A DNA stretch of 64,000 nucleotides from Acidimicrobiales bacterium (GTDB lineage: Bacteria; Actinomycetota; Acidimicrobiia; Acidimicrobiales; Aldehydirespiratoraceae), in assembly GCA_033344915.1 (NCBI GenBank), contig JAWPML010000001.1, positions 596,369-660,368 on the forward strand, read 5' to 3'. Below the pieces are notes generated by a model. The model saw nothing but the letters and a program-made list of their open reading frames with translations. It did no database searches and had not been told where the DNA came from. The position numbers were made by a program, and so were the translations under genes. The first letter of the stretch is position 1. Every line of letters starts with the position of its first letter. Shown one piece after another: positions 54,416 through 57,259 of this stretch.

Positions 54416-55924
54416 GTGACCGAACGCAAGACCACCGCCACCACCGCATTCGGTGTCGGCAAACGCGAGAGCCACGACTCCACGTCGTTCTACGAGCGCT
54501 TCACCCCGCCCGAGATCAGCGCGGACGACACGGTCAACCCGATCCCGGACGGGATTGCGGCGATTCACAATCGCGACAGCCGCGAGATCGCCGACGTGCT
54601 GCCGGCGAACTCGGTGGCGCTGGTGGCCACCTCGCCGCCCTACTTCGTGGGAAAGGAGTACGAGCTCGCGATCACCGGCGATCCCGACACCCGCAGCTCC
54701 GTGCCGTCGGTGCCCACCTCCTACTTCGACTACCTCCAGATGCTGCGAGATGTGTTCGCGTCCTGTGTCGAGGTGCTGGAGCCGGGCGGCCGGATCGCGG
54801 TCAACGTCGCCAACCTCGGCCGCAAGCCCTACCGGAGCCTGAGCGCGGATGTGATCTCGATCCTGCAGGACGATCTGGGCCTGTTGCTGCGGGGCGAGAT
54901 CATCTGGCAGAAGGCGGAGGGCGCCACGGGTTCGGTGGCGTGGGGGTCGTACCGCAAGGCGACCAACCCGGTGCTGCGTGATCTCACCGAGCGGGTGATC
55001 GTCGCCAGCAAGGGCCGCTTCGACCGGGCCCAGTCGAAGGGCCGCGAGTCCACCATGTCGGCCGACGACTTCATGGAGGCGACGCTCGACGTCTGGAAGA
55101 TCAGTCCGGAGTCGGCTCGCCGGGTGCAGCATCCGGCCCCGTTCCCGGTCGAGCTGCCCCGCCGGCTCATCGATCTCTACACCTACGAGGGCGACGCGGT
55201 GCTCGATCCGTTCCTCGGGTCGGGCTCCACCCTGGTGGCCTCGGAACGCACGGGTCGCCGTGGCTTCGGGTTCGATCTCGATGCGGAGTACTGCGAGATC
55301 GCCGCGGCCCGCGTCGACGCCGAACGGGCCCGGCCCCGACTGCGCGCCGTCGAGGTGGTCGGTGAGGATCCGCTCTTCGAGACCCCGGGAGACGATGCGG
55401 ATCGCCAGGAGTTCTTCCAGGCCCGCGCCACGAGCGAGGGCAAGAAGGCGGCCGACATCGCGGAGCGGGTGCTCGTCGAGGCCGGGTTCGAAGTGCTGAA
55501 GGCGCCCGTGAAGATCCCGAAGGTCGGCGTGCAGTTCAACTTCCTCGTCGCCGATCAGGACGGCGGACAGTTCTACGTCGACGTCTCGGGGGCCTTCACC
55601 ACCGTGCGCCCGGGTCTGATGCGCACCGACACACTGTGGAAGACCCTCGGTCGGATCCATGTGTTGCGGGCCACCGACGAGCCCCAGAATCCGAGCCGGG
55701 TGCTCGTGCTCACCTCCAACCTGCCCAAGGCCAACAGCGAGGGCGACAAGGCGCTGCGCGCCGTCGGGCCGGATCAGGTGTTCGATGCGGTGGAGATGTT
55801 CGATGCCGCCGGCGTGGCTCGGTTGCGGGCCTACGCCGAGGGCGGTTCGGTGCTGCCGATCCCGGGCTACTGGACCGAGTCGGACGTGGAGCGGTTCGAA
55901 GACATGGCGAACCGGCCCTCGTAG
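54416..55924 (+). CDS. Site-specific DNA methyltransferase (beta-type, N4/N6) with C-terminal extra domain
   Basis: 502-aa protein. Motif IV is TSPPY (residues 72-76), typical of N4-cytosine or N6-adenine methyltransferases; motif I DPFLGSGST (264-272) lies after it, the circularly permuted beta order. After the methyltransferase (about 1-310) comes a distinct C-terminal domain with KAADIAERVLVEAGFEVL and QFNFLVADQDGGQFYVDVSG, which resembles a PD-(D/E)XK or Vsr-like fold but lacks a clear catalytic Lys. Start GTG 54416. First of three coupled genes to 57259. Confidence 0.9.
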   Translation: MTERKTTATTAFGVGKRESHDSTSFYERFTPPEISADDTVNPIPDGIAAIHNRDSREIADVLPANSVALVATSPPYFVGKEYELAITGDPDTRSSVPSVPTSYFDYLQMLRDVFASCVEVLEPGGRIAVNVANLGRKPYRSLSADVISILQDDLGLLLRGEIIWQKAEGATGSVAWGSYRKATNPVLRDLTERVIVASKGRFDRAQSKGRESTMSADDFMEATLDVWKISPESARRVQHPAPFPVELPRRLIDLYTYEGDAVLDPFLGSGSTLVASERTGRRGFGFDLDAEYCEIAAARVDAERARPRLRAVEVVGEDPLFETPGDDADRQEFFQARATSEGKKAADIAERVLVEAGFEVLKAPVKIPKVGVQFNFLVADQDGGQFYVDVSGAFTTVRPGLMRTDTLWKTLGRIHVLRATDEPQNPSRVLVLTSNLPKANSEGDKALRAVGPDQVFDAVEMFDAAGVARLRAYAEGGSVLPIPGYWTESDVERFEDMANRPS

Positions 55925-56253
55925 TGGCCACGGTCGCCTACGCGGTCGTGCACACCGAGCCGCCGTCGATCTTTCTCGCCGACGACATCGAGTTGTTGCA
56001 CCGGGTCCTCGCCCTCGAGGTCGTGGCCCGCACCGCGCCCGGGCTGCTCGGCCCCCATGCCCAGCCGATCCGTGATGCCCTGCTCGAGGAACGGTGGGGC
56101 GACGCGACGGTCGCCTGGATCCGCGCCACCGGCACCGGCATCGACGTCTACGACGGCAAGAGCGTCTACTCCGACGACGACCTGCCCGCCGACATGATCG
56201 GGGCCCAACTCCAGTTCACCCGGCTGTTCGCCGACGGCGGCCCCGATGGCTGA
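55924..56253 (+). CDS. Small protein in DNA methyltransferase operon
   Basis: 109-aa protein of unknown function between the methyltransferase and the nuclease-like gene. GTG 55924 overlaps the preceding stop by one base, and its end overlaps the next start by eight bases, so the three genes are tightly coupled. The sequence HTEPPSIFLADDIELLHRVLAL and a WIRATGTGIDVYDGKS strand suggest a small alpha/beta fold. No DNA-binding motif was recognised. Could be a specificity, control or immunity component. Confidence 0.6.
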   Translation: MATVAYAVVHTEPPSIFLADDIELLHRVLALEVVARTAPGLLGPHAQPIRDALLEERWGDATVAWIRATGTGIDVYDGKSVYSDDDLPADMIGAQLQFTRLFADGGPDG

Positions 56254-57259
56254 CACCCGCACCGAGATCACCGAGATCGTCACCGGGCTCGGCCTGTTCG
56301 GGTTCCGCGACATCGAGCGGGCGCTCGCCGCGCGACCCCGGTTCATCGTGAACGTCGACGACGGGGTCTACGACCGGTTGGACGCCGCGTTCGAGTCGGG
56401 TTCGCACGAGCGGGTCTTCCGCACGGCCTACGAGAACGGCGCGGTTTTCGCCCGGGCCGACGACGGGCTCCGGGGCCGTCCGCCGTGGATCGTCGAGTGG
56501 AAGGGCCCTCACCGCCCGCCCGCCTACGAGCAGATCCCGGCGGACCTGCGGGTCGACCACGTCTACCTGATCAGCTGCAAGTACGGCTCGAACATCCTCC
56601 ACAACGCCTCGCCCTGGCATGTGTTCGACCGGGCGCTCAGCGAGCGGGCCAAGCAGAGCGGCGACTGGTTCGCGAGCGTCGCGCCCGAGTCCTTCCAGGA
56701 CTTCTACGCGACGGTCCGTGACCATGTCGGCGATCCGTCGCTCCCGGCCCGCGTGGCCGACCTCGATGCCGACCATCGCCTGCTCCTCAAGCAGGCGCTG
56801 AAGGGCCACTGGCCGGCCGCGCTGCGCACGGACTGGCAGCTCGTGGCGTTCGAGATCGCCCGGGCCAGCGCGGCCCGGCTGCTGCGCGCCGCCGGCGGTC
56901 GCCGGGAGCGTGAGGAGTTCCTGTGGCGGGTCCTGCGCCTGCAGGCGGCGCCCTATTTCGTGCTCGGGGCCGGGCTCGACGACGAGCCGCTCCGCTACCG
57001 GGTGGGCACCCCGTGGGACTTCCGCAACCAGTTCGAGCTGCGCAGCTTCGACATGTGGGGCGAGCACGCAGGCCAACCCACGGTCCGATGGCGCGCCGAT
57101 CTGGTTGCCACCGATGGCTCCGAGCGAGTGATCGAGGGCCATGTCGAGGTGCGGTGGAGCCACGGCAAGTTCGCCGGGGTCCCCGAGGCGAAGATCTATC
57201 TCGACACCCCGCACCACGAGGTGGCCGGCTACGAACCGATCGACGCGGCGGGCAGGTAG
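56246..57259 (+). CDS. Possible nuclease (PD-(D/E)XK-like) of the methyltransferase operon
   Basis: 337-aa soluble protein of no family I can name. Residues 80-120 (WIVEWKG, then DLRVDHVYLISCKYGSN) resemble the core of PD-(D/E)XK nucleases: Asp104 and Lys112 at the right spacing with a hydrophobic strand before SxK. The C-terminus (VEVRWSHGKFAGVPEAK) is basic. Coupled to the upstream two genes. Together they suggest a restriction-modification or related defence module, but the nuclease assignment is inference from a few residues. Confidence 0.5.
   Translation: MADTRTEITEIVTGLGLFGFRDIERALAARPRFIVNVDDGVYDRLDAAFESGSHERVFRTAYENGAVFARADDGLRGRPPWIVEWKGPHRPPAYEQIPADLRVDHVYLISCKYGSNILHNASPWHVFDRALSERAKQSGDWFASVAPESFQDFYATVRDHVGDPSLPARVADLDADHRLLLKQALKGHWPAALRTDWQLVAFEIARASAARLLRAAGGRREREEFLWRVLRLQAAPYFVLGAGLDDEPLRYRVGTPWDFRNQFELRSFDMWGEHAGQPTVRWRADLVATDGSERVIEGHVEVRWSHGKFAGVPEAKIYLDTPHHEVAGYEPIDAAGR

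Follow-up and report, generated by a model that had tools for sequence, protein, structure and literature searches.

Do three overlapping genes in an Acidimicrobiales chromosome form a restriction-modification system, and which of them would cut DNA? The genes, here named M, S and R, lie in the 64,000 nucleotides that were analyzed (the window), within a 4.48 Mb genome assembled as a single contig:

54416..55924, + strand: M, 502 aa, DNA methyltransferase of the beta type with a GTG start codon
55924..56253, + strand: S, small protein of 109 aa, GTG start, no family match, profile found in 41/395 genomes of the class
56246..57259, + strand: R, 337 aa, putative restriction endonuclease whose family is undescribed, with a confident AlphaFold model (pLDDT 94.4), REase_II PDLC03456 matches in 34/62 members, and linkage and co-occurrence with M

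All three are on the same strand and are joined by overlaps, not gaps. The G of the M stop codon TAG (55922-55924) is the first base of the GTG start of S, a 1-base overlap, and the ATG of R at 56246 lies 8 bases inside S, which ends at 56253. The original prediction had described this serial overlap, which was confirmed, and had suggested a restriction-modification or other defense module of a type that it could not name. The module is well supported by genomic context, but the reservation about its type was too strong, because the layout is Type II-like. Our best explanation, to which we give a probability of about 0.8, is a Type II-like restriction-modification operon in which R cuts unmethylated copies of the motif of M. 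M would place an N4 methyl group on a cytosine of one fixed DNA motif, and R would cleave the same motif in unmethylated DNA, restricting phages and other incoming DNA. M would be made first and S and R would follow by translational coupling, so that protection would precede cutting.

The M-S-R order recurs with near-zero spacing in 78 S-bearing loci, some of which are repeat fetches. Gaps between the genes range from -20 to +38 bases, with medians of -4 for M to S and +1 for S to R. R and M were found together in one locus in 63 cases. The recurring order, the spacing and this linkage indicate an arrangement beyond chance, and the check for a conserved neighborhood that had been proposed thus gave a positive answer. 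The divergence of R is correlated with that of M (Mantel r 0.65, 0/2000 permutations).

M has the properties of a beta-class N4/N6 DNA methyltransferase. It matches Pfam N6_N4_Mtase (1.6e-35) and the PADLOC Type II methyltransferase model MTase_II (PDLC03350, 8e-79), has a relative in PDB (2zie, 9.8e-29), and carries motif IV before motif I, the permuted order noticed at the outset:

54629..54643, + strand: motif IV of M, TSPPY, residues 72-76, read from the sequence and conserved in aligned relatives
55205..55231, + strand: motif I of M, DPFLGSGST, residues 264-272, AdoMet binding, read from the sequence
55394..55912, + strand: C-terminal domain of M, predicted PD-(D/E)XK fold with a degenerate site (N...DVS for D...ExK), from AlphaFold, Foldseek and conservation

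A Ser in motif IV (TSPPY) is typical of N4-cytosine methyltransferases, and its presence is suggestive of an N4-cytosine type for M. Type II systems with beta-class N4-cytosine methyltransferases, such as PvuII (methyltransferase structure PDB 1boo), also have a stand-alone N6_N4_Mtase with TSPP(Y/F), a separate nuclease gene (putative in M-S-R) and a compact operon. They differ in that no named enzyme matches R in sequence and R is sometimes unlinked, M carries a dead PD-(D/E)XK domain and is nearly a core gene, and the extra gene S is present. CcrM-like solitary methyltransferases resemble M as beta-class enzymes widely retained across a class, but M has TSPPY instead of DPPY and frequently retains a putative nuclease gene next to it.

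The C-terminal domain of M had been described as nuclease-derived and lacking a clear Lys, and both points held. Its model (pLDDT 85.7) has a PD-(D/E)XK fold, and the four best Foldseek matches were NucS (two chains), EndoMS and BsoBI, with probabilities of 0.99-1.00 but E-values of only about 0.01 and TM-scores of only 0.3-0.4. One of 66 relatives matched UPF0102, a family that also has the PD-(D/E)XK fold. The profile of the domain had no credible match among PDB sequences. Unlike NucS/EndoMS and BsoBI, the domain has no catalytic Lys in any of the 66 relatives, where Ser, Thr, Ala, Gly or Cys takes its position, and it is therefore almost certainly dead, judging from the aligned sequences. 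It would be a nuclease fold that lost catalysis, probably a DNA-binding or dimerization module. A common origin of this domain and R was also considered; the homology comparison of the two found none.

R is the candidate for the cutting enzyme. No family was found for it in Pfam or NCBIfam, and its profile had no credible match among PDB sequences. The lack of significant homology to characterized restriction enzymes counts against the restriction reading. Two regions of R are strongly conserved:

56495..56581, + strand: candidate catalytic residues E84, D100, D104 and S110-x-K112 of R, conserved in 60-62 of 62 members
57137..57211, + strand: C-terminal motif GHVEVRWSHGKFxGxPEAKxYLDTP of R, conserved, matching PDLC03456 and recurring in the viral contig L272

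Seven residues (D100, K112, R303, S305, G307, E314 and K316) are invariant in all 62 sequences, D104 and E301 are found in 61, and E84 and S110 in 60. The candidate catalytic motif is D100...SxK112, with QxK in two members, and the segment in the window reads D104...S110-C-K112. A D...SxK arrangement resembling that of PD-(D/E)XK nucleases had been predicted here. The residues proved conserved, but the assignment to those nucleases did not receive support from structure. The AlphaFold model of R is confident (pTM 0.89), yet it had no credible Foldseek match among solved structures. No solved PD-(D/E)XK structure was among the listed matches, which do not place R in that superfamily by core fold, although a divergent core could be missed. 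The structure prediction originally proposed as a check was thus informative for the C-terminal domain of M and left R without a solved counterpart. Reported restriction-enzyme folds include PD-(D/E)XK, PLD, half-pipe, HNH and GIY-YIG (PMC1952068).

The PADLOC model REase_II (PDLC03456) was matched by 34 of the 62 members of R at E <= 0.01 (best 2.3e-5). What they have in common, also with the fragment in L272, is the C-terminal motif EVRWSHGKFxGxPEAK. In the R of the window and in the L272 fragment the likeness extends over only 24-34 C-terminal residues, and PADLOC does not name the enzymes behind the model. The R of the window aligns over its C-terminal 24 residues or so (E 5e-4), limited to the motif HVEVRWSHGKFAGVPEAKIYLDTP, and does not match the full-length profile. 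A search for the PDLC03456 family in 199 genomes of the phylum gave no matches, and the controls were silent too.

M was detected in 273/395 genomes of the class (157/184 genera), R in 77/395 and S, by its profile, in 41/395. Across the phylum, R is almost confined to Acidimicrobiia (11/397 genomes, some scores marginal). Among the 268 good-quality genomes (at least 90% complete, at most 5% contaminated), M is present in 207 and R in 58, and all 58 genomes with R have M, which is the direction predicted for a restriction enzyme. The hypergeometric probability (P = 3.5e-8) assumes independence and ignores phylogeny, and therefore overstates the case; because both genome size and the distribution of M follow phylogeny, the P value of the co-occurrence is inflated. 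Four genomes have R and no detected M, and all of them are 56-76% complete. Linked genes (63 loci) and a nuclease candidate present only with M (58/58) are both as in Type II restriction-modification. In about 11 genomes R has no adjacent M, but each carries a full-length M elsewhere, as a restriction enzyme would need. Such distance between the two is unusual for Type II systems and counts against that reading.

An R that can be unlinked from M would also suit a modification-dependent (Type IV-like) nuclease acting against foreign methylation, in which case M would confer protection through another mark. A Type IV enzyme must avoid the resident cognate mark, however, and the presence of M in every good genome with R is the reverse of what that type leads one to expect. 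No modified-base reader domain was found with Pfam, NCBIfam or PADLOC, and we consider a Type IV-like role very improbable.

Most of the class retains M, whereas R comes and goes. This may be read in another way, with M as a regulatory CcrM-like core methyltransferase and R as a methylation reader or a repair/recombination protein at M sites. M is indeed found mostly without R, the stable chromosomal locus of R near a CarD-like gene is separable from M, and no solved nuclease analogue of R was found. R, however, has a patchy distribution and decays where M persists. It is broken in G127, G260 and G305, which have kept M; frameshifts in R may be assembly errors of draft genomes. The invariant D...SxK and the REase_II motif, the replacement of R after M(-S) by a PD-(D/E)XK protein and the pairing of an R-like C-terminus with an unrelated m5C methyltransferase (both described below) also argue against a regulatory pair, which we regard as unlikely. 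The Type II-like operon remains our preferred reading. If it is correct, a methyltransferase that has become nearly core, with a nuclease that has been lost, relocated or exchanged, makes the transition from restriction to epigenetic use directly testable.

The locus itself is old, vertically kept and chromosomal, not a recent mobile insertion, and M, S and R have been lost or replaced independently. In the family of the window the conserved order is CarD-like, glycosidase-like, M, S, R, exonuclease-like and glutaminyl-cyclase-like (names by sequence reading). The neighboring genes that were read fit the absence of a mobile element claimed originally, and the flanking gene order is conserved in relatives. 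R stands alone at the equivalent place in G370 and G248 and adjoins the CarD-like gene without M and S in family f14, while in family f12 M alone lies between the same kinds of neighbors. At the same place in L011-L013, R is about 70% identical to that of the window, M is only 48% identical and S is absent. If R is active, both subfamilies of M must protect the same site.

Other variants of the locus were observed. In L087, L097 and L105, R precedes M, and the M match covers the methyltransferase domain only, without the C-terminal domain; in the genome of L097 it is found outside the locus, 2 kb past R. L059 (G237) shows a sign of local duplication and decay: it contains another, incomplete M C-terminal domain together with a short remnant of the R N-terminus (78% over 18 residues), ahead of an intact R.

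In genomes without R, its slot may be filled by another gene. A protein of about 139 aa, N, directly follows S in G084, G191 and G100; in G279 it follows M, S not being detected, and G072 has a disrupted copy. The copies located were:

L278, 1811-2227: N, stand-alone small PD-(D/E)XK protein, encoded after M-S in a genome without R
L280, 1087-1479, - strand: N, the same kind of protein in the same setting
L281, 1095-1484, - strand: N, the same kind of protein in the same setting

Comparison within the same loci shows N to be a homolog of the M C-terminal domain, with E-values as low as about 1e-16, but the three aligned members read GVEID...VWFEYKG, an intact D...ExK. No N was found in genomes with R, only four of which were in the search. 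A PD-(D/E)XK protein in the operon slot of R gives independent support to the view that this slot encodes a nuclease.

S had no match in Pfam, NCBIfam, PADLOC or PHROG, and its profile had no credible match among PDB sequences. It is tied to linked operons of M and a nuclease: 34 of the 41 genomes with S have R (profile search, 395 class genomes), and S was not seen in most of the solitary M loci inspected. S may be an optional accessory of linked pairs of M and nuclease. That S sits between M and R, overlapping both in a conserved way, and is nearly restricted to genomes with R or N would also be expected of a toxin-antitoxin-like or other defense module, with S acting as antidote to R or as its sensor. 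Many M-R pairs and the solo R loci examined lack S, however, which indicates that R needs no S antidote, and a module of this kind appears highly unlikely.

R was not found in plasmid and phage records, but one R-like fragment occurs in a viral contig (L272). This fragment, the C-terminal part of an R-like protein (KCEVRWSHGKFCGNPESKLY), matches PDLC03456 (E 0.0012) and lies 15 bases before an m5C methyltransferase. An R-like motif beside an unrelated type of methyltransferase is as expected of a restriction enzyme. The fragment and the methyltransferase occupy L272:88-1680, and the opposite strand carries another m5C methyltransferase-like gene close by.

The model of R was matched by five viral proteins at a Foldseek probability of 1.00. 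We equated one of them, H8ZNG7, with AFD03028.1 (Synechococcus phage metaG-MbCM1) because the phage and the protein length (273 aa) agree; it is a member of PHROG 2496 (T4-GC_1358), for which no function is annotated. The points of likeness between this cyanophage family and R are the predicted structure, a GD...SxK signature and, near the C-terminus, an IRxN...G motif. They differ in being encoded among phage replication genes and not beside M, S or R, and neither profile nor profile-profile comparison detected sequence homology to R. The link therefore rests on structure and motif order, and the kinship is a structural lead only. Copies of PHROG 2496 were located at L265:44455-45276, L267:967-2226 and L269:964-2232. 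The family may be a phage nuclease, and the model of R points to a possible function for it.

We found no paper on the M-S-R operon. New in this work are the R family, the S gene, the loci where another nuclease stands in for R, and an M that is nearly core. If the reading is right, it names a restriction-enzyme family outside the coverage of Pfam, NCBIfam and PDB. A bolder proposal, which we offer tentatively and hold to be doubtful in its full extent, is that R is the founding member of a family of restriction endonucleases whose fold, unseen among solved enzymes, is common to uncharacterized phage and giant-virus proteins, and that it is swappable with a small PD-(D/E)XK nuclease in a class-wide N4-cytosine methylation system that is mostly used without restriction. 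One lake metaepigenome included a single Acidimicrobiia bin, CL500-29, for which neither a methylated motif nor a methyltransferase was reported (PMC6329791).

Finally, site avoidance was scanned in 12 genomes with R and 8 with M and no R (100 kb each), using 80 plain and 496 degenerate palindromes. The best motifs before correction were TCCGGA and TCTAGA (p 0.016), CAGCTG (p 0.019) and CRGCYG (p 0.0005). After correction for multiple testing no motif remained significant in the 20 genomes, a result that weighs against the Type II-like reading, and we therefore claim no recognition site. CTAG was strongly under-represented in most of the 20 class genomes sampled (L163-L262), independently of R.
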